A stretch of 64,000 bases of DNA from a virus. Made by a program: the position numbers and the translations under genes. The notes under the pieces were generated by a model. The model searched no databases, had not been told where the DNA came from, and saw only the letters and a program-made list of their open reading frames with translations. Numbering within the stretch: the first letter of the stretch is position 1; every line of letters begins with the position of its first letter. The stretch spans positions 124,001-188,000 of IMG/VR virus record IMGVR_UViG_3300048438_000153. One strand, 5' to 3'. This document shows positions 38,014-64,000 of this stretch, piece by piece.

Positions 38014-41000
38014 ATTGAGCTACGGACGTTGAACGTAAACTGAATGTAGAGGAGAGGGAAGATCGGCTTGTAGTAAACCTCTACAAGCAACCCAGTTGGG
38101 TCTTCAGGATCGCGGTCAACAGAAAGACCTGTGTAAGAGTCAATAATCTGCTCTTTCACGAGATCCTTAAACATCATGTTCACGCGACCCTCCACTTGAC
38201 CAACAACGCTAGGGAGGTACTTCTCGCCAATGTAACCATTAAGAAGGTTACGAGCGCGGAGGTGAACCTCATCTGCGATCTGAACTACCGTAGGAGTCTT
38301 AGAAAGAATAGAAGTTCCGTCAGTGGTAAGACCCTGACGCACGTTCAAGACTGCGCCCTGTTGCTGAAGAATCGTCACACCTGATGAAGCAGCCTTATTG
38401 GCGTCAACCGCATCAAGATTTCTCAAGAGCCCATTGAAGCCAACCACTGTGCGGTTCGTCCAAGGCGTAGCTACGTCGATGTTCGCTGAGGTAGTTACGA
38501 AAGCCAACGCAACTGCGAGGTAACGACCATCTACAATCACATTCTGAGACACGCCGTTGGTGTCCGTGAGAGTGAGGCTCACGATGTCAGGATAGATCAA
38601 GCGAACTCGACTATTTCTGACGTTCCTCGCGAGAGTAGATGCTTGCTCAGGTGAAGTCCCTGCGGGAACACCCAAGATCGCTGTGCGCTCAGAGCGGAAT
38701 CTCAAGCTAGACTGAACATCACAGTGAACTGAGATGTCAGAAAGAAGCTCAGAAGAAGCTGGAATGAGAGGCACGATCACAGATGGAGAAACACCTACAG
38801 CGATCTCTCCCTCAACCTCGATGAGCGCCTGACTCATCTGAGCGACAGAAGGCTCAGCTTGACCCTCTTCAAGAGGGATCTGCTTGAGAGCGATGGTCTG
38901 CGCTCCGTTTAAGAAAGCAATGTACGCACCGAGAGAAAGTGGGTTGTCTACAGCAACAGGCCCGTAAGCAGAAACCACGTCAGAAAGACGATTGAAGATG
39001 CCTGTGTTGTAAACAGTCTTTCTGCGAGTCACATCCATGAAGTACGGAGTGCCGATAGAAGGCTCTTTACCATCCTTAAGATATGTCTCGATGATCGCTG
39101 TGTCTCCAACCTCTGTACCCACCGTGTTTGACACGATGAGGCTCACGCCTGTAATCGCGCTCACAGGGATGTTAGCGTTCGCCCTGATTGCACGAGAAAC
39201 CTTGAAGCTCAGAGTTGAGTTGACGCCTGTAGGATAAGGCTGAGCGCCCACTCTAGGGAGAAGCGTGAAAGAGAAGCCTGTCACTGCGTCAACGTAAGTC
39301 TGACCGATCACGCCGTCTGCACCTGTTCCGTCATTAAGAACTGAGGTGTTCGCAGACCCCGATCCTGATGCGTTTGTAGAGGTTACGAAGAAGCCCTGAT
39401 AAGCGTTCTCACCTACTTCGCCGTCACCTGAAACAACACCCAATCTCGTGGTGTGCCTGAGAAAAGCTGTAGCACTGCCGAAAGAAAGGATTGAAGAGAT
39501 GCCTGTAGTAAGAGACTCGAAAGCAACGAAGCTCTCACCGATAGCGTTCTTCTCGATGTAAGAAATACCCTGAGATCCGAAGCCGCCTACGGGAAGAACA
39601 CTCGTCATCACCGCGCCTACGCTCGCTGAGCTGTGTTGCATGACCGCAGAAGAAAGAGCGGTTGCTGAAACGAGAGTCGCCACTTCAGTCTGATCCCCAA
39701 ACAAGCCGAGAAGATCATTAGCAGTACCCTCTAAGACTCTGATGTAGTCATCCTCAGTGTTGCCTGTAGCGACAATCCTGAGTCGATCACCTTCAATGAC
39801 GACAGAGCCGAGAGCGCCGAGCGCAGTGTTAATCTGAGCCCATGCGGTACCAGCATCCGTCAAGCCGTCCTTGAACAAGTCTGTGTCAGTACCCGCGCCT
39901 GATGCTGAGAAAGTAACAGAGACAGTCTCACCTGATATATCGAGGTTAAGCGTATTATTCTGAGCGAACAGAGCATTCGTTCCGTCATAGAAAGTAATCT
40001 CAGGACTACCGTTCACAGCAGACTGAGCATTCCTACCTACTCTTAAGAGGAGAGAAGGACTCTCGACCACTGAACTACGCGCAGAAAGAACTTCTTCAAG
40101 CTCAAGACCTGACTCCGCCAACAGTGATCCGCCTGTTACCTCAAGACCAAGCTGAACAGGTGCAGTATAGTTTGCACCGACACGAGTTCTGTTTCTGAGG
40201 ACGAGCCTATCCTTGAGCGCGTTAGAGTCAGCAGAAAGGTCGGTAGAAACGAAGCTCGCTACAGGGAGAATACCGAACTTAGTCTGAGCACCGCCAACGC
40301 CCGTGTCTGTGTCGATACCTGAGATCAGAGCAAAGTCGGTGTCGTCTCCTGTAGAAAGGAACTCGATGTAACCGCTCGTATCTCCCGCCTCAAGACCGTC
40401 AAGAGTAAAGACGAGGAAACCATCTTCTACAGATACGTTGAGGTCAACCGCCCCATTGAAGTTAGCAAGATCGTCAATCTGAGTCTCTATCTCTGTCGCC
40501 ACATCACTTGCGTTGTCGTAAGCCTGAGCTGTGAGAGTGAGGTCATGCTGAGTCGCACCGTTAGCATCACCTACATAGTTAACTCTAAGGACGTTGTGCC
40601 TACCTGATGAGAGATCAACCGCGCCCATTGTGACCATTGAGTAGTATTTAGCGCCAACAGCGTTGAACGCAGTGTTGATCGCTAAAGCGAAGTCCGTTGC
40701 AGTGGCGTTAGCAACAGCGAGGAGGTTCACAGAAACGTCCACGTTGTCGATCTTTAAGAAGATGTCACCGCTGATCGCGTCATTACCCAAGTCAGCGTTG
40801 TCAGTCTCAGGTACATATGGGAGAGGGTTGCCCACATGATAAGTGAAGAGACTTGACCCTTGAGTGGAAGGCGAGCTGAGGTTGATTGTGTTCTCACCGT
40901 TGCTATCTACTGTAATCTTAAATTCGTCTGAGTTGCCCGAAATGAACGCGAAAGGCGCTGGGTTCGGAGCGACGAAGATAGAGGGAGTCGGATCGAAACT

Positions 41001-42809
41001 TCCGATCTGAACAGAAACGGTTTCTTCAACTGCCCTACCTGAACCGAGAGTCGCATCAGAGAGCGTCTCACTACCTGAAGGGAAGTTAAGACTGATGAGA
41101 GAGAGGTCAGAACCCTTACCCTCGAAAGAAACGCCGTAGAGAGGCAATCCTGAGCGCGAGAGGCTGTATGTACCGACGTTTGACCCACCGATAGAAGCCA
41201 CTGTGACCTCATAGCCACCGCCTGCAATCTCAAACTCATCTTGGATGTTGTTGTAGTAGAAAGTAGCAAACACTTTTTGACCGAAAGGAACAGTCTCGCT
41301 GAGGGTGACTGTTGAGTCGGTGGGGTTAACTCTTACAACGTCTACAGGATCGTTTTCGAGCGCGTCTGAAATATTAGACCCAATGCGAACGATGACCTTT
41401 GTCGTGTTGCTTGTAGGAGTCCCCATCCCAGTACCGTCAGTAGGCTGATGAGGGAGCTTGAACACGTTCGGGAGAACGCGAGGAGGCACGACTGAGGTGT
41501 CAGAAACAGGAGTACACTCTGCTAAGAATATTCTCTCGTCTTTGAGGGTCGCAGTGATCTGATTTCTACCGAAAGAAACCTGACCGTTCTGAGTCGTACC
41601 CTCAGAGACAGATGCGAAAGTACCCCAATAAATCTTGTCGTCCTTGAGCACCCAACTGACACCCTCAATGAAGATCGAGTCTGCGCCACCGCCTTCAGGG
41701 ATGAGAGACACTCGATTGACTGAGGTCACGTCCCTTGAAGGGATATAGTCGAAGTTGTCACGGAAAGAGTTGAAGAAGTAAGAAATAGCTACTGTCTGAC
41801 CGACTCTAGGAGGCTGTGCGAGCGTTACCGCGCCTGTCGCGGGATCAAGTGATACAGGGATCACAGGCGCGCCGTCTACAGTTAATGTGACGTCGCTCAC
41901 CTCAGAGGTAGTAATACCACCGTTAGTGCCGTCTACAATCGGAGCTTGGTCGGTGAAGAAAGTAGCGTTTCTAGCTGATCCGCGCTGACCCTCGAAAAGA
42001 CCGACGACCTCATTTGCTGAGCCTGTCCCTACGAGGATAGACCCATCAGCAACGAGCTTAAGATTCGTCGATCCCTTGTGGTCAACGTATGAGCTCGCAA
42101 CGAGAGTTCCGATGCTAGATGCGTTGATCTTTCCGAGGATCGCGTTGAGGTGATTCTCGCGAGTGGTGTTCTGAGGCTTAAGAGGAAGCTCAACCACACT
42201 CGCTGTTCCGTCAACGGTAATGATCAGAGTTCGTGTATTAACACCAACCTCCATAGATCCTGACGCGCCGAAGATATCTGATGTCTCAGCAGAGACTTGA
42301 TCAGTAATATCTTCTGAATCCACGAAGGTATCAGTACGGTTAAAGAAATATGAAATACGAACGTCATCGCCCTCATTAGGGGCTTCAGAAAGAGTCACAA
42401 GACCATCTGCGCCCTTGATCGCGAGCACCACTACAGGAGAGCCGTTGATCGTAGCAGAAACAGATCCCGCTGACGTCGCTGTTGAGCCTGAGCCGTCTCC
42501 TGTGACGATAGGCCAATGGAGGGTTCTCACTACGTTAGTCTGACCGTCGAAAGCACCTAAGTTATAAGTGCCGTTCGGGTTCTGAGAAAGAGCAACGCGA
42601 CCTGACGCATCCTCCTCAACTATTTCCTGATCAACGGTAGCACTCGACCCTCGAACGAGAGTGATCCCATTCTGAGCAAAAGTCTCAGTACCCGATCCGA
42701 TAAGAAGGGGGAGTCTCCCCGAAAAGTTACTCTGAGGAGTAGGAGACTCAAATACTGTCTCCGTATATACTCCGGGTGGTGCGTATCCGCCACGAATAGC
42801 CATAGTCAT
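38010..42809 (-). CDS. giant tail sheath protein
   Basis: A 1599-residue protein, two to three times the usual sheath size. The N-terminus (GGYAPPGVYTETVFESPTP) and the last ~350 residues (TPWTNRTVVGFNGLL; GVTILQQQGAVLNVRQGLTT; a final beta hairpin) are typical of contractile tail sheath proteins, which surround the tube and shorten on infection. The excess lies in the middle and includes at least three copies of a beta module (pattern GxVTLSxxPxxGxxVxISYFFN) at about 125, 330 and 495. It overlaps its upstream gene by ATGA. Confidence 0.88.
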   Translation of the reverse strand: MTMAIRGGYAPPGVYTETVFESPTPQSNFSGRLPLLIGSGTETFAQNGITLVRGSSATVDQEIVEEDASGRVALSQNPNGTYNLGAFDGQTNVVRTLHWPIVTGDGSGSTATSAGSVSATINGSPVVVLAIKGADGLVTLSEAPNEGDDVRISYFFNRTDTFVDSEDITDQVSAETSDIFGASGSMEVGVNTRTLIITVDGTASVVELPLKPQNTTRENHLNAILGKINASSIGTLVASSYVDHKGSTNLKLVADGSILVGTGSANEVVGLFEGQRGSARNATFFTDQAPIVDGTNGGITTSEVSDVTLTVDGAPVIPVSLDPATGAVTLAQPPRVGQTVAISYFFNSFRDNFDYIPSRDVTSVNRVSLIPEGGGADSIFIEGVSWVLKDDKIYWGTFASVSEGTTQNGQVSFGRNQITATLKDERIFLAECTPVSDTSVVPPRVLPNVFKLPHQPTDGTGMGTPTSNTTKVIVRIGSNISDALENDPVDVVRVNPTDSTVTLSETVPFGQKVFATFYYNNIQDEFEIAGGGYEVTVASIGGSNVGTYSLSRSGLPLYGVSFEGKGSDLSLISLNFPSGSETLSDATLGSGRAVEETVSVQIGSFDPTPSIFVAPNPAPFAFISGNSDEFKITVDSNGENTINLSSPSTQGSSLFTYHVGNPLPYVPETDNADLGNDAISGDIFLKIDNVDVSVNLLAVANATATDFALAINTAFNAVGAKYYSMVTMGAVDLSSGRHNVLRVNYVGDANGATQHDLTLTAQAYDNASDVATEIETQIDDLANFNGAVDLNVSVEDGFLVFTLDGLEAGDTSGYIEFLSTGDDTDFALISGIDTDTGVGGAQTKFGILPVASFVSTDLSADSNALKDRLVLRNRTRVGANYTAPVQLGLEVTGGSLLAESGLELEEVLSARSSVVESPSLLLRVGRNAQSAVNGSPEITFYDGTNALFAQNNTLNLDISGETVSVTFSASGAGTDTDLFKDGLTDAGTAWAQINTALGALGSVVIEGDRLRIVATGNTEDDYIRVLEGTANDLLGLFGDQTEVATLVSATALSSAVMQHSSASVGAVMTSVLPVGGFGSQGISYIEKNAIGESFVAFESLTTGISSILSFGSATAFLRHTTRLGVVSGDGEVGENAYQGFFVTSTNASGSGSANTSVLNDGTGADGVIGQTYVDAVTGFSFTLLPRVGAQPYPTGVNSTLSFKVSRAIRANANIPVSAITGVSLIVSNTVGTEVGDTAIIETYLKDGKEPSIGTPYFMDVTRRKTVYNTGIFNRLSDVVSAYGPVAVDNPLSLGAYIAFLNGAQTIALKQIPLEEGQAEPSVAQMSQALIEVEGEIAVGVSPSVIVPLIPASSELLSDISVHCDVQSSLRFRSERTAILGVPAGTSPEQASTLARNVRNSRVRLIYPDIVSLTLTDTNGVSQNVIVDGRYLAVALAFVTTSANIDVATPWTNRTVVGFNGLLRNLDAVDANKAASSGVTILQQQGAVLNVRQGLTTDGTSILSKTPTVVQIADEVHLRARNLLNGYIGEKYLPSVVGQVEGRVNMMFKDLVKEQIIDSYTGLSVDRDPEDPTGLLVEVYYKPIFPLLYIQFTFNVRSSI

Positions 42810-45736: not shown

Positions 45737-47383
45737 TCATACGACTTGATCCAAGAGATGAGTGACCACCGCGCTCTTGATGTACTTGAAGCTCTTGGGT
45801 GTTAAGACTCCGCCGATCTCAAAGTACGTTTTAGATCTTTTCAGAGCCTCCATGAAATGATCTCTAATCGACTCTTTAGAAAGACCGTAGTTCTTTCTCA
45901 GATACTCTTCGGACTCAGACGCAATCTGCTGTAGAAAAGCCTTAACCTCTGAGCTGTGGTTCACATACCTCCGAGCCTCAGCTACTGACTTATTCTTTCT
46001 CCCGTATCCCTCCATATTCTTATGGTAAAGAATCTTGTCGTAGGCATGAGTCACCTCATGCTCAAGGATACCTAAGAACTCTCTTTTGAATTTAGCCTCG
46101 AAGTTTGAATATTTACGAGTCAAAGGGTGTGTCAGGTTCGCGGGGTAGTCCTTTATCCGAATGATGATGTGATGGTCATTAAAGATATATAGCCCACTAC
46201 CTTCTCTATCTTTATCAATCTCAGCAGTGACATAGACACTCTCTTCACCGACACTAAGTTTGCCTACTAGAAAGTGAGGAAACCTAGAAGCCTCAGAGAT
46301 ATAAGACACACCCTTCTCTGTAGCTTTCTCGGCGCGTTTCTCAATCTGACCCCAAGCTTGGTCTGTAAGCTCTCTTAAAGGGCGCTTATCTATACGGATG
46401 GGGCGAGCCGCCGATTTGTCTTTGATCAAGTCCTTGCCCTCTTCAGAGAACGTCGGTGTGAGAACAGGCTTCTGACCCTCACTCTTAGCCTCCTCACTCC
46501 TCTTCTTGCGCGCCAACGTAGCCCTCTGTTCTTTCGTGAGATCGTGGGCTTTGTCTCTCGGCATACACTTGAGTGGGTTCTTTCCTCCATCCGTGACGCT
46601 TCTCCAACTCGGCTCACTAGAGATGGCACATGGGCCAACAATGTCTCCTGCCTCATAAGTCTTAGACTCCCCGTTTTCTTTCTCTACGGTGTGTTTGATC
46701 GGAGTGATCGCGATCCAATCACCCCATGTAGCTCGCTCATCGGGCTTACCCCCACCATGACCCGCAAACCAAGTGGAAAGACCGCCATGACCTGTATTCT
46801 TAAGTTTGGGGCCATCTCTCTGTGCTGATCGTAGATATCGGGAAGCTACCCTATATGGACTACTAGACCCTTTTTTGACCCCATAGCAGTTCTTATATGG
46901 TCTACAAGACGCTTTCTCTGAGAAGCCCATCTCGCCACAGATCTTGGACTCACAGTGCTCTTTATCCCACTTACGAGGCTTCTTGTACGAAGTATCTTTC
47001 CCCGAAGAGTTCTTTCTCAGAGAAGGGTTTCTGAGCATGGTATCTCTTGTCCTGAAATCTTTGTTCCTACCCTTGTTAGGCTTGAACCCAAATCTCCTAT
47101 AAAACTTAGTCAAACGAGACACGGAGCTCGCGCCGAAGTCTGTTGAAGGAGAAAGAGATAACATAACACCATGATCATCAGCCCAAGAGATAATCTGAGA
47201 CATGACCTCTGAACCCAAACCTTGCTTTCGATTTTCTGAGGGGATCTGAACTGTCATGATCCTGACGATAGGGGCGTGATATTCATCCCCGCTCGATAGG
47301 AAAGAAGTCCATAAAACAAGACCCTGATATCGTCTCTCTAAGTTATCTTCTAGTGTCTTTAGCGACTGCTCTAAAATAGACAT
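45737..47383 (-). CDS. fusion of GNAT acetyltransferase, Cys-rich domain and metallopeptidase
   Basis: 548 residues from the ATG at 47383 (GAGG upstream; 47398 possible). Residues ~20-110: GNAT fold (VRIMTVQIPSENRKQGLGSE, the acetyl-CoA loop; FYRRFGFKPN). Residues ~135-160: CESKICGEMG...CRPYKNCYG. Residues ~185-290: a domain with HGGGKPDERATWGDWIAITP and DIVGPCAIS, recalling a DUF5872-type domain known in large viruses. Residues ~320-548: zinc peptidase with LEHEVTHAYDKI. The segment YRVASRYLRSAQ between parts resembles N-termini of other phage proteins, suggesting fusion of once separate genes. Confidence 0.75.
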   Translation of the reverse strand: MSILEQSLKTLEDNLERRYQGLVLWTSFLSSGDEYHAPIVRIMTVQIPSENRKQGLGSEVMSQIISWADDHGVMLSLSPSTDFGASSVSRLTKFYRRFGFKPNKGRNKDFRTRDTMLRNPSLRKNSSGKDTSYKKPRKWDKEHCESKICGEMGFSEKASCRPYKNCYGVKKGSSSPYRVASRYLRSAQRDGPKLKNTGHGGLSTWFAGHGGGKPDERATWGDWIAITPIKHTVEKENGESKTYEAGDIVGPCAISSEPSWRSVTDGGKNPLKCMPRDKAHDLTKEQRATLARKKRSEEAKSEGQKPVLTPTFSEEGKDLIKDKSAARPIRIDKRPLRELTDQAWGQIEKRAEKATEKGVSYISEASRFPHFLVGKLSVGEESVYVTAEIDKDREGSGLYIFNDHHIIIRIKDYPANLTHPLTRKYSNFEAKFKREFLGILEHEVTHAYDKILYHKNMEGYGRKNKSVAEARRYVNHSSEVKAFLQQIASESEEYLRKNYGLSKESIRDHFMEALKRSKTYFEIGGVLTPKSFKYIKSAVVTHLLDQVV

Positions 47384-47384
47384 A

Positions 47385-48512
47385 TTACACGACCTCATTC
47401 ACGAAGATGCCCACCGCTTTCTTCCAATTTCTAGGCTTGTACCTTTTAAGAGATTGAAAGAACTTCCTGTGGTTTAAGTAGCTTCTAATGTCACTGTTCT
47501 TAGGCTGAGGATTTCTCTCCCTAAAGTTAGTCACCTCATCTAAGAGACGAGAATAAAACTCAATGTCGTCGAGCGCATGGATCGAAATGAGACTAGGATC
47601 AAGACCCTCAGATCTGTACTGATTTCTGAGGGTCTTTTCTTTCTCCCTGTCGTGTTGCCGAAAAGTTCTGTCTCTACTTGAGGTAGGTAAACCCGCTTCA
47701 GAAACTCCCGCATTTAAAGCCATCTGTCTCTGAAAAGCATGGACAAGCTCATGTCGGGCAAAGTCCTCAATCTCTCTCAGCTCTTCCACACCTAAGTTTC
47801 TTTCCTCTGAGAACATGACCACGCCTATAATATGCTTTTTCTCTCTAGAAAGAGAAATCGAATCTTGACTCGGATCATAGAGCTTATAGTAAGCAGGACT
47901 CTTTTCAGAACTCTTAGACCCCTGTTCTACTTTCCCTACTAATGTGAGATCTCCAAGCTCCTCTGTATGAAGTACATTAGTCTTAATAGAATCCTGAATC
48001 TTGGCAAGTCTCTCATATAAAGGTCTTGCCGAAGCAGATATGAAAGGAGTCCGACCCTTGTAAAGACTCTTAAGGTCGGACATCAGACTGAAAAAGTCCC
48101 CCTCTAAATCACCAACGGAGCGCCTAAAATCTCTAGGGCTGTCCGAATAGCTTAAAGACTTCAGATCACGGATCTTCGCCTTCACCCTGTTAAGAGAAGA
48201 TGGCTGTTTCAAGCCCCCTCTCCAAGACGATGTGAGCTCATCAAGAAAAAGCTCGGCGCGATCTAACAGCCTGATGTAGCGAACACCATTATCTCTCCTA
48301 AGCGAGTCAGAAGCGTCTTCTAAATCCTCAAAAGACTCGTTTAGGTCTGATATCAGATCCTTATTTAAGAAAGAACTCTCTTCTAGGAGATTCTGCTTGT
48401 TGACCCAATAGCTCGCAAACTTAGCCTGAAGCCTTTCAGTAACTTCTTCTACGAGGTGTCTTGGAGGTCTTATCAAGCCCGCACTTTTAGGTTCAGATGC
48501 TCTTACTCTCAT
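47385..48512 (-). CDS. putative zinc metallopeptidase
   Basis: 375 residues from the ATG at 48512 (GAGG 8 bases upstream; one base overlap with the previous stop). The N-terminus has AGLIRPPRHLVEEVTERL, a segment shared with two other metallopeptidases here. A helical region follows, then strand KKHIIGVVMFS and the helix FARHELVHAFQ with HELVH at 254-258. The C-terminal ~90 residues (HALDDIEFYSRLLDEVTNFR, FFQSLKRYKPRNWKKAV) are almost identical to the next gene's. Likely a catalytic Zn enzyme; substrate unknown. Confidence 0.72.
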   Translation of the reverse strand: MRVRASEPKSAGLIRPPRHLVEEVTERLQAKFASYWVNKQNLLEESSFLNKDLISDLNESFEDLEDASDSLRRDNGVRYIRLLDRAELFLDELTSSWRGGLKQPSSLNRVKAKIRDLKSLSYSDSPRDFRRSVGDLEGDFFSLMSDLKSLYKGRTPFISASARPLYERLAKIQDSIKTNVLHTEELGDLTLVGKVEQGSKSSEKSPAYYKLYDPSQDSISLSREKKHIIGVVMFSEERNLGVEELREIEDFARHELVHAFQRQMALNAGVSEAGLPTSSRDRTFRQHDREKEKTLRNQYRSEGLDPSLISIHALDDIEFYSRLLDEVTNFRERNPQPKNSDIRSYLNHRKFFQSLKRYKPRNWKKAVGIFVNEVV

Positions 48513-48590
48513 CACACAACCTCATCCACGAAGATGCCCACCGCTTTCTTCCAATTTCTAGGCTTGTACCTTTTAAGAGATTGAAAGAAC
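47388..48590. repeat. near-identical 3' ends of two tandem metallopeptidase genes
   Basis: 47388-47463 and 48515-48590 (76 bp) differ at only two positions that I see, and similarity continues further. It implies recent duplication or gene conversion of the C-terminal segment while the N-terminal parts diverged. Confidence 0.8.
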
Positions 48591-50512
48591 TGACTGCGGT
48601 CTAGGTGAGCGCGTATATCCCTGTTCTTAGGCTGAGGATTTCTCTTCCTAAAGTTAGTCACCTCATCTAAGAGACGGGAATAAAACTCAATATCATCGAG
48701 CGCATGAACAGAAATAAGACGAGGGTCTAGACCCTCAGATCTGTACTGATCCCTCATTGACTTCAGTAGCTCTTTCTTATCTTCAACATCATCCGAGTCA
48801 AAGATGTTAGGTTGCCTGAAAGTCTTGTCATATCTTGAGCGTGGGAGCCCTGTATCTCTGTATTCTCTAGGAGAAACATTCGGCTTACTTAAGTGGCGCT
48901 GAATAGCGATTTCTTTCTGCATGAGGTGAACTAACTCATGTCTCGCCACATCCTCTATCTTATCAAGCTCAAAAGCCCCCCAAGTGGTCTTCCCTGAATC
49001 GAAATAGAAAGTGATGATGTGTGCCGTATTACCGAAACCATAAGACCCTCCCGCCCTAAGAGGACTCTTAAACTCTACATTCACATAGAGAGGGTGAGAA
49101 AGAGATGGATCACTCAATCGCCACGAGTAGCCCGACCTTGAAACCTTACGTCTGTGTGAGTTCTTCTGAAAAGCCTCTTCGTACTTCTCTTTCGCGTAAG
49201 GATTGATCAGGCTCATGCCTGAGCCATTCGCGCCCTCAAAAAGATCTCTGAACAAGTCTGAAAGAGTCCTGATATCCTCTTTGTACAAGCTCACTTTTTC
49301 TAAGAGGTCTTGAGGGTTGAGCCTAGAAATGATCTCGTGCGCGTCTATGATCTTAGAGAGATCATCGCTGTCTGTAACTTTCCCACTGAGAGTGTTCAAG
49401 TAGTTCTTTCCGCTCTTGAGTTGGAAAGAAACATCGCTCAGAGACTCCTCACCTCTCTTAATACCTTTCGGAAGATAGGCGAAATCATCAGCAAAAGCCT
49501 CAAGGATGTCTAGGTCGTCTGAGCTGTAGGGGCTACTGTTTCTAGCTTCCATATCGAGTAGATACTCAGCGAGCGCGCCCTTAGCAATCTCGGTCAGCTC
49601 TTTGACGAGGTGTTGAGGTGGTCTAATCAACCCTGCTTTTCTTAAAGCAGATCCGTTGTTCGCGAATCCACTGTCGTAAGGGATAACACGCGCAGAACCG
49701 CTACCGCTGTCATGGACGTATCCCAAGTCGAGTCGGTTGGCGGGAGTCCTCCCGTTAGCCTCAGACTTATCGAGATTTCGGTACTTCAGATTGGGTGAAT
49801 CAGGGGAAGGTCTACCTATGTTTCTTGCCGAGTCTCCATTGGGGAGCGCGCTGTGTGCGTCCGTTCCATCGGGATTGTCTGAACGACCGATGGGAGTACC
49901 TTGTGTCAGGCTTGAGAGCTGATCAGGTGGAGTGACTTCTCTATAGAAATCAGCCCTTCTTTCTAGCGAAGCAGTCTTACCTGTGTCTGCGATATGGTTG
50001 AGCCAAACACTCTCTAGGTCTGTGTTGAAGACAGAAATCTCTATGGGCTTAGAATAGCGCCATGTGGAGACAGTCGTTTTCTGCTCTGTAGTCCACTGAG
50101 AGTTCCCCCAACCAGGTTCTTGAGAATAGGTAGTCTCTACTTGATAGAAAGCGTTCCCTTTGAAAGTGACCTTTGGAGATCGGGAGTAGAAATCGACCTC
50201 AAGCTCTCCCGCTAGACCGATAATCTGAGGATCGACTTTAGACGAGGTGAGTCTATCGGCGATCCTCTTCATTTCTGTCGTGCTTACATTGAAAGGGGAT
50301 ACTGCGTAAGACCAAGGTACGTTACCATTCTTATTAAACCACGCAGACGTGAGAGACTTGATCTCACTCTCTACTTCGGCGTACCTGTTGAACGTAGAAA
50401 TGTTGCTGAGAAGAGCGGTCTTGACGGCTTCCCTGAGATCAGGGTTATCGTGCTTAACAGTTACCGAAATATCATTAGGACTTGAGTACCAATCAGATGA
50501 CGTTCTTCTCAT
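48512..50512 (-). CDS. large virion-type protein with zinc metallopeptidase domain
   Basis: A 666-residue protein. It starts MRRTSSDWYSSPNDISV, similar to the MRRT leader of other genes. Residues ~30-180 are a globular domain; 190-285 are low-complexity Gly/Asn/Asp/Ser; then AGLIRPPQHLVKELTE at about 290 begins a unit like the gene at 47385, with DVARHELVHLMQ (HExxH at about 520) and the same C-terminal ~90 residues. The plan, N-terminal domain plus linker plus peptidase, suits a virion-carried enzyme. Confidence 0.72.
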   Translation of the reverse strand: MRRTSSDWYSSPNDISVTVKHDNPDLREAVKTALLSNISTFNRYAEVESEIKSLTSAWFNKNGNVPWSYAVSPFNVSTTEMKRIADRLTSSKVDPQIIGLAGELEVDFYSRSPKVTFKGNAFYQVETTYSQEPGWGNSQWTTEQKTTVSTWRYSKPIEISVFNTDLESVWLNHIADTGKTASLERRADFYREVTPPDQLSSLTQGTPIGRSDNPDGTDAHSALPNGDSARNIGRPSPDSPNLKYRNLDKSEANGRTPANRLDLGYVHDSGSGSARVIPYDSGFANNGSALRKAGLIRPPQHLVKELTEIAKGALAEYLLDMEARNSSPYSSDDLDILEAFADDFAYLPKGIKRGEESLSDVSFQLKSGKNYLNTLSGKVTDSDDLSKIIDAHEIISRLNPQDLLEKVSLYKEDIRTLSDLFRDLFEGANGSGMSLINPYAKEKYEEAFQKNSHRRKVSRSGYSWRLSDPSLSHPLYVNVEFKSPLRAGGSYGFGNTAHIITFYFDSGKTTWGAFELDKIEDVARHELVHLMQKEIAIQRHLSKPNVSPREYRDTGLPRSRYDKTFRQPNIFDSDDVEDKKELLKSMRDQYRSEGLDPRLISVHALDDIEFYSRLLDEVTNFRKRNPQPKNRDIRAHLDRSQFFQSLKRYKPRNWKKAVGIFVDEVV

Positions 50513-50526
50513 GAGGTAGCTCTTTC

Positions 50527-52077
50527 TTAGTTAGAGAGACAAGCTCTAATATCAGCGAGCGCGTAGTGACTCCGAGGAACTTGGAGGAGCTGAAGAAGCT
50601 GAGGTCGATACTTAGGGTTCTCGTAAGCGAGCTTAACGACAGCAGTCTTAGCTACAAAGGCGTCCTCTCCAAGCTCGTCCTTAACTACTTCTACTTCTCT
50701 CTTAGCTTCCTCTCCCTTTTCTTTCTTAGCCTCAGAAACAGCTTTATCAAGGTTCTTCTTAACCTCAGCGTGGAAAGCCTCAGTCTGCTTTTTCATATCG
50801 GCCTGAAATGCTTTTAAGTCAAAGCCGTTCGGAGTGACAAACTGAGAAAGGTAGTCAATCTGATCAGCATCAATTGTTGAATAATACTCAATGATTTTCT
50901 GCTTGAGAGATTCAATGTCCTCTTCAGAAGCACTCTTAAACCAGCTCTTTAAACCTGACACACCTTTACTGCCCTTCCCCACTCCTTTCTGAGTTAAACC
51001 TCCAATACCCTCAGCGATACCTTTAACTCCTTTTAAAGCGATTGCACTAACACCCGCAACGGAGGTTACAGCCATTGCGACTGCTTGTGCTCCAGCCACC
51101 GCACCTCCTGCTGAAAGTCCGACTGCACTTCCAAATGCTTCTATGCCCATATCAGCAAAACTTGAGCTCGCTTCTGAAGCACCCTCAGCTTGAGCGTCAT
51201 TAAGACCATTCTTCTTAAAAATGGAATGATGGGCTTTTTTTATCTTATTTCGACTCTCTTCCCCCCACTTACCAATCGCCTTTAATTTTGTTTGTAACTC
51301 TTCAGCACTCTCAGGAATAGATTCGGTGAGAGTTTTTCCCGCTTGACTAAGAGTATTACTACCCTTTTCATCTAGCTTACTCGCCTCCTCAAGAGCCATA
51401 TCTATCGCGATACCTACGTCTTGAGAGCTGTCGAGAACTAACTGTCTCTTCACTTCAGCAGAAATCTCTGAAGCTAACTGAGCTCCGCCCTCTTTAAGAG
51501 CAGACACAGCTTTCTCCTCACCCTCAGTCAGTTGCTTTTGCTTGTTCCACTTTTCTGCAAGATCTGCGATAGCTTTCTTAGCTTGTTCATGGAGACTAGA
51601 TGCCTCATCAAGCGCATAACCTATTGCAGTAGAAACGGCTAGTGATCCCTCCATAGCCTCAGAGATTTCGACCCTTTGGTTTTGCAAAGACCTCTCAAAC
51701 TCAGATTGACTCTCAATAGGTACACCTATCGCAGTCTCTAGTTTAGACTTCTTTTTGTCTTTTTTGTTCTTGTTGTCTTTCTTATTCTTGTCGTCCTTCT
51801 TATTGCGCTTATCCGCTCTGTTCTGTTTTCTCTTCTCTCCCTTGTTACCCCTATTCTTAGTCTTCTTCGCCTTAGACCTACCTGCCTCTTTAAAGATGTC
51901 TCCCGTGAAGAAAGGAAGCACATAATCCCTGATCTCAGGGTTCGCATAAGCGAGCTTGATGACCCTCGAAATAAGATCTTCTTCTGAAGCTGTCCTGAGA
52001 GAGATCAGAGGGAGGATATCGCCTCTAGTTTCCTCGTTTTCGTAAGCAGTACGGATCAAGTATTCTCTAATGTTCAT
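50527..52077 (-). CDS. protein with three AYENP modules and a hydrophobic core
   Basis: 516 residues from the ATG at 52077. Two N-terminal modules (LIRTAYENEETRGDILPL and VIKLAYANPEIRDYVLPF) and one at the C-terminus (VVKLAYENPKYRPQLLQLL) match the module in the 2H phosphoesterase. A very basic Lys/Asn run (about 75-115) is followed by coiled coils and, at about 300-365, a Gly/Ala/Val-rich stretch (GLSAGGAVAGAQAVAMAV) able to enter membranes. A pore-forming ejection or toxin-like role is possible but unproven. Confidence 0.65.
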   Translation of the reverse strand: MNIREYLIRTAYENEETRGDILPLISLRTASEEDLISRVIKLAYANPEIRDYVLPFFTGDIFKEAGRSKAKKTKNRGNKGEKRKQNRADKRNKKDDKNKKDNKNKKDKKKSKLETAIGVPIESQSEFERSLQNQRVEISEAMEGSLAVSTAIGYALDEASSLHEQAKKAIADLAEKWNKQKQLTEGEEKAVSALKEGGAQLASEISAEVKRQLVLDSSQDVGIAIDMALEEASKLDEKGSNTLSQAGKTLTESIPESAEELQTKLKAIGKWGEESRNKIKKAHHSIFKKNGLNDAQAEGASEASSSFADMGIEAFGSAVGLSAGGAVAGAQAVAMAVTSVAGVSAIALKGVKGIAEGIGGLTQKGVGKGSKGVSGLKSWFKSASEEDIESLKQKIIEYYSTIDADQIDYLSQFVTPNGFDLKAFQADMKKQTEAFHAEVKKNLDKAVSEAKKEKGEEAKREVEVVKDELGEDAFVAKTAVVKLAYENPKYRPQLLQLLQVPRSHYALADIRACLSN

Positions 52078-52136
52078 TGGGTTTGCCCTTTCTAAGCGCA
52101 AGTTTCTTTTCTTAACTTAACGACGAGATAAAAAAA

Positions 52137-54785
52137 TTACTCAACCCTCTGTCTGAGGAGATAAAGGTTAGTCTCGTGAGCGTTCGCCATAGACATAATA
52201 AAGTCGTCCATCCCTAGAGTGAGAACGTCCATTTCTTTCAGCGCCTTATAGATATTCTTGAAGGCTACCTGTAGAGCTTCCTCCACAATCAGAGCGCGGA
52301 GAATAGGGTTGTCTTCAGCCTGAACCTCAGCGATAGGGAGAATCGTGTTCGCCATCAACTGTGCCTGATCTACAGGAGAGACAGCTCGACCTCCGTATGT
52401 ACCCACGATCTTCTCAGCGAGCGTGTCGATCTCTTCGATAAGACTTTGGTAAATCCTCTCTAGTAAGAGATGATCTCCATACTGACTCTCACCCTTCACT
52501 TGCCAATGACTCGTCCAATGAGCCCAATGCGCGCCCCTCAATATGGCGAGCAGAACTTGGAGCGTAGAGAGGGCCATGTCTTTCTCAGAGGCTTTCTTTC
52601 TCCAACCCCCACCTAGCTCTTTGTAAGACTTACTAGCCCAACCGTTCGCATAGGCGCTAGGGTACTTCCTAAAGCCTTCTCCGCCACGAACAGGATTGAT
52701 AATCTTATCACCCCTAGAAACAGGGTTCTTTCTATCGCCTTTAGCGAGGTCTATAATCTCGCCCCACAGCTTAGGGTCAGTAGGCATATTCTCAGCCCCC
52801 CTCTCTATGAAGTTAATGTGCTGAAAAGAGTCCACAGGGATTTGACGATACATCCTAGAAAGAATAGACCTCACGGCCTCTCTCTGCATCGCTTTCTTTC
52901 TTAGTTGCACTTTTCTCGATTTTTGGTTCTTCTGAGTCACGGTCGAACTCCCCCCACCTTCTAGGCGTTTATATCTTTTAGGGTTGTCTCTTCTCCTCTT
53001 ACCTGAAAGGAGAAGCTTGGTCTTATTTCGGAGGTAGTACCTCTTGTTGTCTCTCTTCATCTGACCACGATCTCTACGTTTTTTCTTAACATAGTCGATC
53101 TTGTTCTTTCTGTTGAGAGTCCCCTTAGTATCTCTTTGCTTTCTTCTAGGTGGGCGCAAAGTGATCTTAGCTCTCCCCCGATGCTTCGGGTCAGCTATTC
53201 TTTCTTCTTGAGCCATCTTAGGTCTGCGAGCTAAGCCTGTGGTTTTATTAGCGTCCACATAGGGGTGTCCATATTGATCTCCAGGTATGCCTGAGCTTCT
53301 AGGGCGTTGATGAAGAGGCTTACCATCAGGCTGATTAGGTAGTGCGTTCGGATTCGGTGCTTTCCCGTAGTTAAGAGAAGCTCCTGAGCTGTCTGAAGGC
53401 GTGTTGGAAACAGGAGGCCCTGATCGGTACTCGTCACGCCCTTTCGGATGACCGCTAGGAAGGGGCAGAACTCTATCTCTTTGCGACTTACCATCCTCAT
53501 AGTCTTGACGGCTAGGTTCGGGGGCAGAGGTGTCGTTATCGAGTCCGTCTTGACGACTCTTGCTAACCCAAGTCTGAACGCCCGCTAAGTCCTGTATAAG
53601 TTGCCTAGCAACACGGGTGTTAGAGTCCTCCGTGACAGCCTGATAGAACAAGCCAACAGCTTTGTCCCAAGACTTTCTCTTAAAGTGCTTGAGAGCCCTA
53701 AAGAAAGGACTACTGTTGATGTGTCTACGAACGGTGGAGTTGTTTTTTCTGAGAATGGGATTTCTGAAGTAGCGAGATCTGAACTCCTCAACCTCGTCTA
53801 AGAGTCTCGTATAAAACTCAACGTCATCAAGGGCATGGAAGTTAGCTAAGTTAGGGTCTAAGCCTAAGTCCTTGAGCTCCTGACGCACTTGACGCTCTTT
53901 TGACTTATTATGCTGAGTGATCTTAGTGTCTCTTCTCTTAAAGGGTAAGCCCCCTCTATCTGACAAGCCCTCTCTCTGCCCTATTTCTGACTGAACCGCG
54001 TGGACTAACTCATGCCTAACAGTGCCCTTCACCTGAGCCAAGTCATCTCGGCTGTAATCGGTCTTCTCAGGGATCATAATCTTGATGTGGTGAGCGGAGT
54101 TCCGAAAGCTGTGCGTACCGAGTACGTTTGAATCCATAAACTTAAAAGACAGGACTATGGGATAAACAAATTCAGGGTGAGTGATTCTCGCCTCCACACC
54201 CAAGTCTATGTGGGTGTGGGAGGTCTTAAGATACTCTCGGGGAAACCGACTTTGAGCGAGCTCAAACATATCCTTATCTTGATAAGGATATGACTCTTTC
54301 TTTTCCTTCAGATTTTTAGACACATATAGAAGGCATAAAGAGAGCTTCATAACATCTATCTTGTTATCCCTAAGAACCTTGAGCGACTTATCTGAATTTG
54401 AAAGAGTTTCGAGGTCATTCCAACTAAGAATCTTCTCAAAGAGAGTAAGTGCAAGGTTAGCGTCGTCTCTTATGTTCTTATTTTTATAAGTGTTTTTCTT
54501 AGTGTCTGCGATGACTATTCGGAGTACGTCATGATAGTCATGAAGGAGATCTTCGAGAAGCTCGAATAGCTCTTCCATGTCTTCGTTTTCAAAGTCTTTA
54601 AGATACTCCGAAATCTCTTTCGCCATGCCTTCAAGGTCTTCGATCTCCTCTTCGCTCACTATAGAACTAAAAATTTTAGTGAGAACGTGATCAGCTAACA
54701 CACCCTGAGCTATTTCAGCCACTATTCTAAAAAGCTCGGGAGGAGGCTTCATTAAGCCTGCTTCTTTGTCTGAGAACCTTGCCAT
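52137..54785 (-). CDS. fusion of zinc metallopeptidase, basic linker and Dps-like ferritin domain
   Basis: An 882-residue protein. Residues 1-380: peptidase unit with N-terminal AGLMKPPPELFRIV, VRHELVHAVQ (H258-H262) and HALDDVEFYTRLLDEV. Residues 390-640: disordered, then very basic (KKKRRDRGQMKRDNKRYY). Residues 660-730: KLWGEIIDLAKG and YPSAYANGWASKSY, a motif seen in large-virus proteins. Residues 735-882: Dps-type four-helix domain with ferroxidase residues in the exact spacing of E. coli Dps: H in SHWQVKG, H twelve later, E, then D (IEEID) and E (TLAE). It would oxidise iron or bind DNA. Confidence 0.75.
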   Translation of the reverse strand: MARFSDKEAGLMKPPPELFRIVAEIAQGVLADHVLTKIFSSIVSEEEIEDLEGMAKEISEYLKDFENEDMEELFELLEDLLHDYHDVLRIVIADTKKNTYKNKNIRDDANLALTLFEKILSWNDLETLSNSDKSLKVLRDNKIDVMKLSLCLLYVSKNLKEKKESYPYQDKDMFELAQSRFPREYLKTSHTHIDLGVEARITHPEFVYPIVLSFKFMDSNVLGTHSFRNSAHHIKIMIPEKTDYSRDDLAQVKGTVRHELVHAVQSEIGQREGLSDRGGLPFKRRDTKITQHNKSKERQVRQELKDLGLDPNLANFHALDDVEFYTRLLDEVEEFRSRYFRNPILRKNNSTVRRHINSSPFFRALKHFKRKSWDKAVGLFYQAVTEDSNTRVARQLIQDLAGVQTWVSKSRQDGLDNDTSAPEPSRQDYEDGKSQRDRVLPLPSGHPKGRDEYRSGPPVSNTPSDSSGASLNYGKAPNPNALPNQPDGKPLHQRPRSSGIPGDQYGHPYVDANKTTGLARRPKMAQEERIADPKHRGRAKITLRPPRRKQRDTKGTLNRKNKIDYVKKKRRDRGQMKRDNKRYYLRNKTKLLLSGKRRRDNPKRYKRLEGGGSSTVTQKNQKSRKVQLRKKAMQREAVRSILSRMYRQIPVDSFQHINFIERGAENMPTDPKLWGEIIDLAKGDRKNPVSRGDKIINPVRGGEGFRKYPSAYANGWASKSYKELGGGWRKKASEKDMALSTLQVLLAILRGAHWAHWTSHWQVKGESQYGDHLLLERIYQSLIEEIDTLAEKIVGTYGGRAVSPVDQAQLMANTILPIAEVQAEDNPILRALIVEEALQVAFKNIYKALKEMDVLTLGMDDFIMSMANAHETNLYLLRQRVE

Positions 54786-58993: not shown

Positions 58994-59872
58994 TTAGCGA
59001 GTAACGGTGAGGCGAGCAAGACCGCGTGGGTTGTACGCGCCGATACCCAAATTCTCAAAGACTGAGAAACCGATGGTGCGAGCCTTCGGATCGTCAGCAG
59101 AAAGAACAGTAAGCTCAGTACGGACAGGGATGCGTCCGAACATCTCAGGCTCACAGCAGACGTACACAGTGCCGACAGGAACTAGACGGCTAGTGATGAT
59201 CTGTGCGCCCCAAAGAGTAGCCTGAAGACCAGTCTTAAGGAGCGCTGCTTGGCTCTCGATGTCGAGAATGTCGCGACCAAACTTACGGATGTCAGCGTAG
59301 TCACGAGCGTTCATGAAGACGCGAGAGACACGGAGGTCGTGACGCTCGATAAGAGCGTATGCGTCAGCGAGAACAGCACCGTTAAGAGGAGCGATGACAG
59401 GAATGTCAGCGTTAGTCTGACCAGGGAGACTGTCGAAGCCTTGAGTCGCAACCGCGTCGAGGATAGCGAATACACGCTCGTCCTCAGCCGCCTGAATCTG
59501 AGCGCGAGCCAAGTCTTGAGCCCTCTCGATCAGATCGAAGCGACGCTCCTTGATCTGAGTGAGTGGGATCTCAGGGTTTGATGCGATCTCGAAAAGAGGG
59601 AAGATCACACGACGTGGCTTGGTGATAGCGAGGATGTTCTCGCCCTCTTCACCTACCACGAACGCGGTCACGTCAGGGTCTTTGTCGTAGATCGGAAGCG
59701 CACCATCAGGAAGTTGCTCTACGAGGAAAGTCTTACGACCAACGCTCGTATAGTCACGACGGAGACGGAGAGGTTGTGTCATTGAAGCGGCTAGCTTCGC
59801 ACGACCTTGTGGGGTCTTAATGTAGTCAGCAATGATCTTTTGCTTTACTGCGTTATCGACGTTGTTACTCAT
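58994..59872 (-). CDS. major capsid protein (HK97 fold)
   Basis: A 292-residue protein with features of HK97-type capsid proteins of large myoviruses: helix-rich N-arm, a domain with IPLTQIKERRFDLIERAQDL (spine helix), DAVATQGFDSLPG, RVFMNARDYADIRKFGRD (A domain strand-helix) and ends in VFENLGIGAYNPRGLARLTV. The gene order protease, scaffold, decoration, capsid supports this. Codon and composition match neighbours. It is followed by a strong terminator, as expected for a highly expressed gene. Confidence 0.85.
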   Translation of the reverse strand: MSNNVDNAVKQKIIADYIKTPQGRAKLAASMTQPLRLRRDYTSVGRKTFLVEQLPDGALPIYDKDPDVTAFVVGEEGENILAITKPRRVIFPLFEIASNPEIPLTQIKERRFDLIERAQDLARAQIQAAEDERVFAILDAVATQGFDSLPGQTNADIPVIAPLNGAVLADAYALIERHDLRVSRVFMNARDYADIRKFGRDILDIESQAALLKTGLQATLWGAQIITSRLVPVGTVYVCCEPEMFGRIPVRTELTVLSADDPKARTIGFSVFENLGIGAYNPRGLARLTVTR

Positions 59873-60639: not shown

Positions 60640-62649
60640 TTAACCGAAGTACTTGCTGACGTCGGGAGCTGACTCCCAAAGCTTAGAAAGCTCGTCAGAA
60701 GCAGAGCTTGCTTCACGGCTGATGTTACCGAGTGTCTTAACAGACGCTTGGCGAGCCTGAGTCTGAGGGCGGAAAGAAGCTGATTTCTGAGTAGTAGCGG
60801 TAGCCTCCTCTTCAGACGCCTCCTCCTCAGATGCCTCTTCATCAGCGGCTTGGAAGATACGAGCGAGCTTAGGATCGACATCGACATTATCTGAAGCCAT
60901 GTGAAGACCCATTACGTCCTCAGCCATGTCCTCAGCCATATCCTCAGCCATATCCTCAGCCATCATGGTTGCCTCGTGATCCTCAGCCATCATGGTTGCC
61001 TCGTGATCCTCAGCCATATGATGCATCGCCATTTCTTCTTCAGCAGTCATGTCGAATTGGCTAGGATCATTCTGATCAGCCATCATCATCTCTGCTTCCA
61101 TCTCAGCGAGCATCTCATTAAGCATTGCTTGCTCTTCAGAAGCTAGACGCATCTCATCGAAATGAGCTTTCTTCTTCTTAGGAACACGTTGACCTTCAAC
61201 ATTGTGCTTGTAAGGGCGAGGTCTTGCCTTCTGACCCTGTGGGTTTGACTTTGAAGGCCAACGCTCAGGGTTGTTCACATAGTAGGTGTGGTTGTAACTA
61301 GCCTTTGATCCAGGCTCTTGCAACAATTCTTTGCGAGCTTTAGTCTTAGGTCGTTTACCCTTCTGACCACTGCGATTCCAATTCCAAATAGCCTTTCTAT
61401 CTTCATCAGAAAGATAGTCTTGCCAATCGGGATTAGCCTTACCGTAATCCTTAATGCCCTTACCGCGACGACCCCAAGCCTCTTTGTCCTCAGCCATCAT
61501 GTCCATCTCAGCCATGATCTCTGCGAACTCTTCATCAGAAAGAATATCCTCAGCCATCAACTCGTCGTTGGCTTTTTTCTCTTTTTTTCCTTCTGATTGA
61601 GGAACACCCCAAAAGAGATGTTTGTACTTCTGATAGTACTCTTTGTTGTGCTCTTGCTTGTCCTCATCAGTCCAACCCGTAGTTCCGGGAGAAGAGCGGT
61701 ACTGACCTCTCATCTTGGAGTCCATATACTCAAATTTGTCTAGAGTTTTTCCGTAGGGCTCTTGCGTGTGAGGAGATTTAAGTTTGCCTGGATCCGTGAA
61801 TGACTTCCATCCATCTTCTTTCTTGCCCCAAGCACCTTTAGCAACGATGTTCATCTCAGCCATGATCTCAGCCATGCGGTCTGCATCGCCCATGTGAGAA
61901 GCCTCGTGCATCATCTCAGCGAGAATGGCCATGTCCTCTGACATCATTTCTGAGGCGAGTTTCTTAGTAGGACCTTCGCCCTCTTCCTCGTCGAGAACCT
62001 CAACGCTCTCGTCGTCGCCCTCATGACCTGTCTCTTGCTGAACTACGTCCTCTGCCATGCGACGCATTTTAGAAGCGAGACGGGCGTTAGCCGCTTTGAG
62101 CATGGCGATTTCTTCAGCCATGTCTTCTTCAGCCATCATCTCAGCCATGACGTTATCTACGCCCTCGTCATCACCCTCGTAGCCTGTAGCCTCTTGCATC
62201 GCATCCTCTCCAAGAAAGTCTGAAGCGATACGCTGGATCTTGGCATTGATCTGACGTGATGGGAGATCCATGTAACGAAGGGCAAGATCCTCGATCTCAT
62301 CCTGTGATGCAGTCCTACCGAGACGGCTCTCAGCAATCTCGATGCACTTAGAAGCCTTGCGCTCCATAGCCTTGCGGAGATTCTGCTCGTAGAGGTCAGA
62401 AGTCTCCTCATAGTCTGAAATGATGTCCTCAGTAGCTGCGGGATGATCTGCTTCCCAACTGTATGAAGCGGGGGCAGGTCCTGAGCGGTAAGGACCTTCG
62501 TGAACGCCCTCGCCAAATTCTGAGTCGATGCCATAAGCGTCAACTGAGGGCTGTGCTTGTGATGCGGGATGACCGAAGCTCTCGAAGCCCTGATCATCAT
62601 AACCTGGTAGGCTAGAAGTGTTAGCCCTACGGAAACTATTCCTAGACAT
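60640..62649 (-). CDS. acidic Met-rich scaffold / prohead core protein with inserted domains
   Basis: 669 residues from the ATG at 62649 (AGAAAGGAAA upstream; 62685 also possible). The protein is very acidic and helical, rich in MAEEM/MAED blocks (MAEDHEATMMAED and MAED x4 near residues 555-590). Between acidic parts lie two basic Trp/Tyr-rich insertions, about 270-355 (HNKEYYQKYKHLFWG) and 385-495 (YNHTYYVNNPERWP), which resemble each other. The C-terminus (SKLWESAPDVSKYFG) could bind capsid. Position between protease and decoration genes fits a scaffold cut by the protease. Confidence 0.7.
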   Translation of the reverse strand: MSRNSFRRANTSSLPGYDDQGFESFGHPASQAQPSVDAYGIDSEFGEGVHEGPYRSGPAPASYSWEADHPAATEDIISDYEETSDLYEQNLRKAMERKASKCIEIAESRLGRTASQDEIEDLALRYMDLPSRQINAKIQRIASDFLGEDAMQEATGYEGDDEGVDNVMAEMMAEEDMAEEIAMLKAANARLASKMRRMAEDVVQQETGHEGDDESVEVLDEEEGEGPTKKLASEMMSEDMAILAEMMHEASHMGDADRMAEIMAEMNIVAKGAWGKKEDGWKSFTDPGKLKSPHTQEPYGKTLDKFEYMDSKMRGQYRSSPGTTGWTDEDKQEHNKEYYQKYKHLFWGVPQSEGKKEKKANDELMAEDILSDEEFAEIMAEMDMMAEDKEAWGRRGKGIKDYGKANPDWQDYLSDEDRKAIWNWNRSGQKGKRPKTKARKELLQEPGSKASYNHTYYVNNPERWPSKSNPQGQKARPRPYKHNVEGQRVPKKKKAHFDEMRLASEEQAMLNEMLAEMEAEMMMADQNDPSQFDMTAEEEMAMHHMAEDHEATMMAEDHEATMMAEDMAEDMAEDMAEDVMGLHMASDNVDVDPKLARIFQAADEEASEEEASEEEATATTQKSASFRPQTQARQASVKTLGNISREASSASDELSKLWESAPDVSKYFG
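60917..61014. repeat. tandem repeats in the scaffold gene
   Basis: A 12-bp unit TCCTCAGCCATR repeated four times (60917-60964) and a 27-bp unit (CATCATGGTTGCCTCGTGAT plus CCTCAGC) repeated twice (60961-61014). They encode MAED and HEATMMAED repeats; such arrays can change length by slippage. Confidence 0.9.
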
Positions 62650-62674
62650 AGGATTTCCTTTCTGCATGAAGGGC

Positions 62675-64000
62675 TTACCGCCCATGAACGAATGTGATAA
62701 GCTTGGAAAGTCTTACCAAGCGAAGTGAGTCTTTGCGAGTTAACTTTGAACCATGACACTCCTCAGCGTCAGAGATAAAGCTAGCCACTTTATTATACCT
62801 GTCTGCTGAGTCTATTTGACTAGCAATACGGTACAGGTAAGAAGGTAGGTAGACGTCGAAACGATCATTGACGAGTCTGATGTTATCGACTGCCTCTTTC
62901 TTAGAGGAGGCGATCTTCACAGCGGTGTCAAGAGCTGAGAAATAGAGATTCTTTCTCTTTATCTTTCTCTTACTCTTGCCCTCTTTAATGATTGTATCGT
63001 CAGCGGTAGTAGGGTCGCCTGTTGCGGGTACATTAACCGCTTTCTGAGCGAGCTCCTCTTTGATCTCCTTTTCGAGCTTCTTTCTCATGCGACCAACGAG
63101 AGCTTCAGTCACTACGCCCTCAAGTTGATCGAGAATAGAATCAGGAGTCTCTTCTTTCTTAGTGGATTCACCCTCTTCATCGCCCTCGCCATCTCCGAAG
63201 TCGAAAGGACCTGCGAGATGGGATGAAGCAGACTTGCTCAACCACTGCGGAGGAACTTGATTAAGTTTTTCCTCTTGTGGGTTGGCGTCAGCGGAAGGGA
63301 TTTCAAGAGTATTCCTAGCGACCGCGCCCTTAAAGGCAGGTATGGCAACCCAAGAAGCCTCAATGAAGGTTACGCCACCTGTTTCCCCCGTAGTCTCATG
63401 ACCACAAAGCTCGGCAACACGGTGCTTGTTTCCATTCTCATCGAAGAAAACATTACCCTTCTCATACTTAACGTGTCGGCACATCTGAGGCTCATCAGCC
63501 GCGACGTGACCGCACTTGGTGCAGATGGTGAAATCGACAGAACAACCCATCGACATACCGTTCATTTCACCCGATAAGATTTGTCTAACGAGATCTTCGT
63601 GCTTTCTATCTGTGGCTACAAGAATATCCACATAGATAGATTCACCAATATCTCGCATAACAGCATCAATGATACGCCCTTTAGAGAGCTCTTCAACTTG
63701 AACGTGTTCAACAAAGTTATGCGCCCCCACAAACGTCTTATAAGACTTCTTAATAACGCCCCTAGACCAACAGTCGAGGTTGTTATTGATGTACTTATCT
63801 GTCTCGGAGGTGACTCGATAGTCTGCATACTTTCTGTTAATATTCTGACCCTCTTCCTCAACTGAACCTGTCTTTACATTAGGGACAGAAACAGCGTCTA
63901 CGGAGCACACAATCGTAGAGTGTGTGAGTAGAAACCGATCAGGAGTGAAGGGCTCGCCTAAAAGCTCTTCTGCTTTCTTCTTAAGGCTCGAATCGAGGCG
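62675..64000 (-). CDS. prohead protease (5' end outside window)
   Basis: The frame is open to the right edge, so at least 442 residues are encoded and the true start is not visible (no convincing start within the window). Seen: KTFVGAHNFVEHVQVEELSK with the catalytic-type His, DILVATDRKHEDLVRQILSG, NGMSMGCSVDFTI with the catalytic-type Ser, then CTKCGH...MCRHVKY (zinc ribbon-like insert) and GGVTFIEASWVAIPAFKGA. This matches large-phage prohead proteases (HK97 S78-like fold). The C-terminal ~170 residues are acidic then helical and may act as extra scaffold. It overlaps the alternative 62685 scaffold start. Confidence 0.82.
   Translation of the reverse strand, partial: RLDSSLKKKAEELLGEPFTPDRFLLTHSTIVCSVDAVSVPNVKTGSVEEEGQNINRKYADYRVTSETDKYINNNLDCWSRGVIKKSYKTFVGAHNFVEHVQVEELSKGRIIDAVMRDIGESIYVDILVATDRKHEDLVRQILSGEMNGMSMGCSVDFTICTKCGHVAADEPQMCRHVKYEKGNVFFDENGNKHRVAELCGHETTGETGGVTFIEASWVAIPAFKGAVARNTLEIPSADANPQEEKLNQVPPQWLSKSASSHLAGPFDFGDGEGDEEGESTKKEETPDSILDQLEGVVTEALVGRMRKKLEKEIKEELAQKAVNVPATGDPTTADDTIIKEGKSKRKIKRKNLYFSALDTAVKIASSKKEAVDNIRLVNDRFDVYLPSYLYRIASQIDSADRYNKVASFISDAEECHGSKLTRKDSLRLVRLSKLITFVHGR

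Follow-up and report, generated by a model that had tools for sequence, protein, structure and literature searches.

A Dps domain behind a hyperbasic segment in a modular late protein of a 275-kb virus: a candidate head-associated protein

We describe an open reading frame (ORF) that we read, with slightly more confidence than doubt, as encoding a head-associated, DNA-binding Dps protein of a jumbo phage, made within a modular precursor. The ORF begins with an ATG, specifies 882 residues and lies in a window of 64,000 nucleotides (bases 124001-188000 of a 275-kb virus record), to which the coordinates below refer unless a locus or the record is named. The strongly basic linker and the HExxH motif that had been predicted ahead of the Dps domain are both present (42 K/R versus 8 D/E at residues ~540-660, pI 11.8; HELVH at residues 258-262). 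The layout of the protein is as follows.

52137..54785, minus strand: mosaic ORF of 882 aa, made up of an HExxH module, LPLPSGHP box, hyperbasic segment, YPSAYANGWA box and Dps domain (from the sequence)
53631..54785, minus strand: HExxH module, residues 1-385 ('KEAGLMKPP...'), with a helical N-terminal part, a four-stranded sheet and an active-site helix (alignment and predicted model)
54000..54014, minus strand: HELVH motif, residues 258-262; H258, E259 and H262 are invariant (n=13)
53817..53819, minus strand: E323 within HALDDVEFY, invariant; candidate third metal ligand, gluzincin-like
53226..53609, minus strand: conserved low-complexity box, 'QDLAGVxTWV...RDRVLPLPSGHPKGRDE...QRPRSSGIPGDQYGHPY', residues ~393-520 (sequence comparison)
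52821..53183, minus strand: hyperbasic segment, residues ~535-655, up to 47% K+R per 60 aa; by composition a probable DNA-binding tail
52605..52796, minus strand: 'MPTDPKLW...GFRKYPSAYANGWASKSYKELGGGW' box (YPSAYANGWA), residues ~664-727; also found in the cyanophage S-BM3 protein T4-GC_119
52587..52598, minus strand: candidate prohead-protease site by motif, K730-K731-A732/S733, which would be cut A|S
52140..52577, minus strand: Dps (ferritin-like) domain, residues 737-882 (profile searches, AlphaFold and Foldseek)
52413..52508, minus strand: ferroxidase-type residues H760, H772, E776, D787 and E791 (sequence and spacing)

The original prediction of a Dps-like domain at the C-terminus is borne out by both profile searches and modelling. 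Matches beyond chance were obtained to phrog_3636 (E=8.7e-9) and phrog_858 (3.6e-6) in PHROG, along with matches to the NCBIfam Dps family (5.9e-6) and, using phmmer against the PDB, to the Dps protein 4cyb (6.2e-5). The best Pfam match was PF19174 (DUF5856) at 4.8e-6, where the 28 bits scored by the domain and the 31.8 bits scored by its relative L025 lie below the curated gathering cut-off of 34.6; a literature search on DUF5856 found nothing. The AlphaFold monomer model (pLDDT 86) has helices at 2-27, 33-61, 68-78, 91-116 and 121-145 and includes the Dps BC helix, and the best 50 Foldseek matches listed against the PDB are all Dps chains (TM ~0.8), at only 13-24% identity in the structural alignments. 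We conclude from this predicted model that the C-terminal domain is a genuine Dps fold, a four-helix bundle with the helix of the BC loop. The ferroxidase set also has exactly the spacing that had been noticed, with H760 followed by H772 (+12), E776 (+4), D787 (+11) and E791 (+4). Both histidines, the aspartate and the final glutamate are invariant in all 37 sequences covering the site (the window counted in, and the first histidine partly preselected through the search pattern), and the set has thus not been lost in the homologues. The +4 position after the second histidine varies: it is E in 16 sequences, D in 6, Q in 11, S in 1, N in 1 and G in 2, that is, acidic in 22 and non-acidic in 15, and because of these 15 the strength of any ferroxidase may differ, or vanish, in some members. 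Glutamate at this position is also seen in the solved Dps 2d5k.

Bacterial Dps proteins (for example 8ff9 of P. aeruginosa, 4cyb, the DpsC of S. coelicolor, and E. coli Dps) resemble the phage domain in the predicted four-helix bundle with its short BC helix, and their ferroxidase residues, H/H/(D or E)/D/E, have the same spacing. Dps proteins characteristically assemble as cages of twelve subunits whose ferroxidase sites lie where subunits meet, and many, though not all, bind DNA by a basic tail; Lys-rich DNA-binding tails occur in some. The phage proteins differ in that their acidic core follows a tail that is hundreds of residues long and reaches 55% K+R, and in that the domain is embedded in a modular late protein.

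Relatives with distinct Dps ORFs were collected at 38 loci from three viral-contig scans and one phage record. The relatives are metagenomic; a scan of cellular genome contigs gave pattern matches, none of which was confirmed as a homologue. Among phage records, LR745208 (43%) and Lactobacillus phages were found, and a more distant query led to Salmonella 7-11-like and Aeromonas phages. Three architectures are seen: Dps alone, the distant relatives of this type being without a basic tail; the common arrangement of Dps behind a hyperbasic tail (38-55% K+R per 60 aa), often with the conserved LPLPSGHP box; and the full series of HExxH, box, basic tail and Dps, confined to the window and to the contigs L025-L028 and L032, which are 49-54% identical to it across the HExxH part. 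These independent contigs have the same module order, and an assembly artefact is therefore excluded as the source of the 882-aa ORF. In two further loci (L041 and L043) Dps has an ORF to itself, whose start overlaps by 4 nt the stop of an ORF that ends in the basic tail. The HExxH, GNAT, PAP2 and Dps modules and the boxes reappear in other orders across neighbouring ORFs, as does an ART-like stretch that was spotted by eye only, and the peptidase-Dps 'fusion' is thus a single outcome of a shuffling gene cluster. Three observations on these mosaics are recorded here in their own right. An intein-like insertion, seen by eye, splits the YPSAYANGWA box in a 997-aa Dps mosaic (L006:7998-10991, equivalent to L044:6439-9432). 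The mosaic late ORFs at L029:2600-5233, L034:9444-12353, L059:6175-10323 and L085:4207-7158 bring in a PAP2 phosphatase, a GNAT-like domain, an inorganic pyrophosphatase and a second HExxH. Finally, an (I/V)xLAYxNPExRxxLLPLL motif occurs in the ORF after the Dps ORF (50527-52101, minus strand) and in some Dps ORFs (L060, L070, L032 and L025).

The Dps ORF sits between the major capsid protein (MCP) and tail sheath genes. On the minus strand the order is head maturation protease, scaffold-like ORF, MCP, several small ORFs, a 343-aa and a 188-aa ORF and the Dps ORF, followed by ORFs of 524, 666, 376 and 553 aa, glutamine synthetase, ORFs of 370 and 144 aa and the tail sheath-like ORF; portal and TerL lie immediately beyond the window. 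The neighbours that matter here are listed below.

62675..63910, minus strand: head maturation protease (phrog_18299, 1.2e-15), with 4 [KR]xAS in its C-terminal part
60640..62685, minus strand: 681-aa ORF, scaffold-like by its position, with nine [KR]xAS sites
58994..59872, minus strand: major capsid protein (phrog_2522, 3.9e-51), 4.2 kb upstream of the Dps ORF
50527..52101, minus strand: 524-aa ORF directly downstream of the Dps ORF, with three (V/I)xxAYxNPExRxxxLPLL-type repeats and two [KR]xAS
48512..50512, minus strand: 666-aa mosaic ORF with a paralogous HExxH at its C-terminus and without Dps
47385..48515, minus strand: 376-aa paralogous HExxH module, free-standing
45737..47398, minus strand: 553-aa mosaic ORF with a GNAT-like domain and boxes common to relatives
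38010..42809, minus strand: 1599-aa tail sheath-like ORF at the far end of the cluster (Phage_sheath_1C at 4.1e-4, below the cut-off)

This setting recurs: at least one of the MCP, protease, portal, TerL, sheath or 370-aa genes lies within a flank of ~9 kb at 27 of the 38 loci (a raw count), and some Dps loci have no head gene close by. Among the relatives of the MCP are LR745208, Tunturiibacter phage Tunturi_5 and Bacillus phage G. Within the structural cluster, and again in L034-L036, stands a gene of 339 aa (44636-45655, minus strand) that resembles glutamine synthetase in both its N and C domains, and an unusually long TerL candidate of 1044 aa (L014:5473-8607, minus strand) has an N-terminal extension of ~430 aa that also matches a helicase family. 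A search of the 64-kb window against Rfam gave zero matches.

It is from this gene position that we infer packaging of the Dps protein in the head. The position could instead reflect late co-transcription only, with Dps acting unpackaged as a cytoplasmic stress protein that guards the infected host cell, or the phage DNA replicating in it, against oxidative damage. This is how free-standing phage Dps has been explained in Gratiaviridae (PMC8008677) and Lactobacillus phages (PMC6669764), and the Dps gene of Salmonella phage 7-11 is found among replication genes. Those proteins are likewise Dps domains encoded by tailed phages, but they are annotated single-domain genes, whereas here most relatives have Dps in the company of head genes, and it is joined with a hyperbasic tail and with modules common to other ORFs of the structural cluster. 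We therefore regard the cytoplasmic explanation as rather unlikely, if the strongest of the competitors. A ferritin-like protein of the Vi01-like phage Sajous1, gp217, was reported in the phage proteome by mass spectrometry; its authors place the gene in a tail operon, read it as a 'ferrojan horse' and caution that low peptide counts cannot tell virion proteins from debris (PMC10892097). In the parts of that report that deal with gp217 it is described without a basic tail or head cluster, unlike the protein here.

A second competitor gives the basic tail the leading role, such that the protein would condense head DNA in the manner of a protamine and the Dps core would serve as an oligomerisation platform with secondary or vestigial iron chemistry. 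The basic segments are extreme and repeated, and the relaxed +4 ligand would suit such a role. The retention of H, H, D and E throughout the family, however, argues for metal chemistry that is still in use, and Dps-only relatives exist without any tail; we judge this improbable.

How the Dps domain might be released from its precursor is suggested by a short motif. Four scaffold-like ORFs together contain 28 copies of [KR]xAS where 2.5 would be expected (11.2x), whereas the control motifs [KR]..AS (0.41x), [DE].AS (0.83x) and [KR].SA (0.85x) are not enriched; milder excesses are seen for [KR]AS (3.5x), [KR].AG (4.7x) and [KR].SS (3.9x). Over the whole proteome there are 143 [KR]xAS against 54.6 expected, and because of this 2.6x excess the motif may not be protease-specific. 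The 882-aa protein has only one copy, RKKA732|S733, four residues ahead of the Dps start and within the interval (residues ~640 to 735) where processing had been predicted. Of the 21 fused ORFs, 12 have [KR]x?AS no more than 22 aa ahead of Dps, against 0.69 expected, the 21 fusions not being independent of one another. In the N-terminal part of the MCPs, KLA|(A/S) or RLA|A is found near residue 27, and herpesvirus maturation proteases cleave Ala|Ser. Phage prohead and herpesvirus proteases are described as homologous (PMC5694885). Taking together the enrichment, the site before Dps, the MCP N-termini and the herpesvirus specificity, we suggest that the prohead protease perhaps cuts the 882-aa protein before Dps. 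Production of free Dps from an internal start at M737 was considered and rejected, a Shine-Dalgarno sequence having been looked for and no strong one found. The prohead protease of giant phage SPN3US is known to act on proteins of the head, ejection proteins included (PMC5694885, PMC10052503), and some of the SPN3US/phiKZ ejection proteins have common N-terminal propeptides, a candidate parallel to the present case; their cleavage motif is AXE/SXE as opposed to the candidate [KR]xA|S, and the relevant parts of these reports mention no Dps for SPN3US/phiKZ. Separately, an N-terminal peptide of ~20 aa, M(M)RRTASEILSDLEIRIARLE, is common to at least 10 otherwise unrelated ORFs (window 8300-9100, 11914-12309, 16934-17641 and 17744-18307, minus strand; record 25215, 27226, 82394, 91302, 98865 and 215107). 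Most copies contain [KR]xAS, and the peptide looks like a common targeting or packaging tag.

According to the head-associated reading, the protein would enter the prohead together with the genome, the hyperbasic segment would bind phage DNA, and the prohead protease would cut [KR]xA|S junctions, including the one ahead of Dps. Fe(II) would then be oxidised and sequestered by the Dps core, possibly assembled into a 12-mer, with less Fenton damage to DNA inside the particle or upon entry as the outcome. The Dps fold, the invariant H/H/D/E, the hyperbasic tail, the head-gene setting, the presence of a head maturation protease and the [KR]xAS enrichment speak for this reading; the tail-less distant Dps-only relatives, the loci without a nearby head gene and the relaxed +4 position speak against it, and on balance we lean towards it. 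We offer more tentatively a fuller proposal, in which the heads of some jumbo phages would contain a hybrid of Dps and protamine, its ferroxidase cage bearing a long Arg/Lys tail that coats the packaged genome. The prohead protease would release this hybrid from a shuffled 'cargo polyprotein' by cutting at [KR]xA|S, and it would travel with the DNA and guard it against iron-driven oxidation.

There remains the HExxH module, whose junction with Dps had attracted attention to this ORF in the first place. H258, E259, H262 and E323 are invariant across 13 such modules, and HExxH with a downstream Glu is a candidate gluzincin-type pattern in which E323 may be a ligand. No confident family was found for the module in Pfam, NCBIfam, a PDB profile search, Foldseek against the PDB or BFVD, and neither Pfam nor NCBIfam contained a peptidase family matching it. 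The predicted model (pLDDT 80) gave PDB matches all at E>=0.1, the best zinc peptidase being 4l7a at 0.47, and its best BFVD match was a structural protein of Serratia phage BF (E=1.1e-3, TM 0.31). In a tree of the Dps domain, the HExxH fusions form a single small derived clade (support 97/88) inside the basic-tail group; on this tree the joining is a late, rare addition and one derived event. The original prediction knew of no peptidase-Dps fusion, which agrees with what we found, but the fusion is one shuffle product of a modular cluster, and the idea that the peptidase is functionally tied to Dps as a single machine is not upheld, since the pair is confined to that one clade, HExxH paralogues stand nearby without Dps and most relatives have Dps without HExxH. 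A working fusion in which HExxH processes the protein in cis, or supplies or senses metal, is scarcely credible: the invariant HExxH and E323 and the retention of the fusion in three divergent lineages favour it, but HExxH is absent from most Dps relatives, adjacent ORFs carry it without Dps, the phage has a dedicated head maturation protease, the model lacks a confident match to a solved peptidase, and nothing points to metal supply or sensing. HExxH is best explained as a separate cargo module, shuffled in within one small clade and outside the Dps mechanism. Given how late and rare its arrival was, the striking part of this ORF is the likely virion-carried, DNA-protecting protein and not the peptidase fusion.

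Phage Dps genes were already known; a Dps with a hyperbasic tail and its shuffled precursor look like new additions. Shuffled candidate head-protein modules can yield odd 'fusions', which are not to be taken for one enzyme. If the head-associated reading is true, protection of DNA by iron handling would join the functions of the proteins inside jumbo-phage heads, and [KR]xA|S would be a concrete cleavage code for predicting the proteins that these phages process and may inject.
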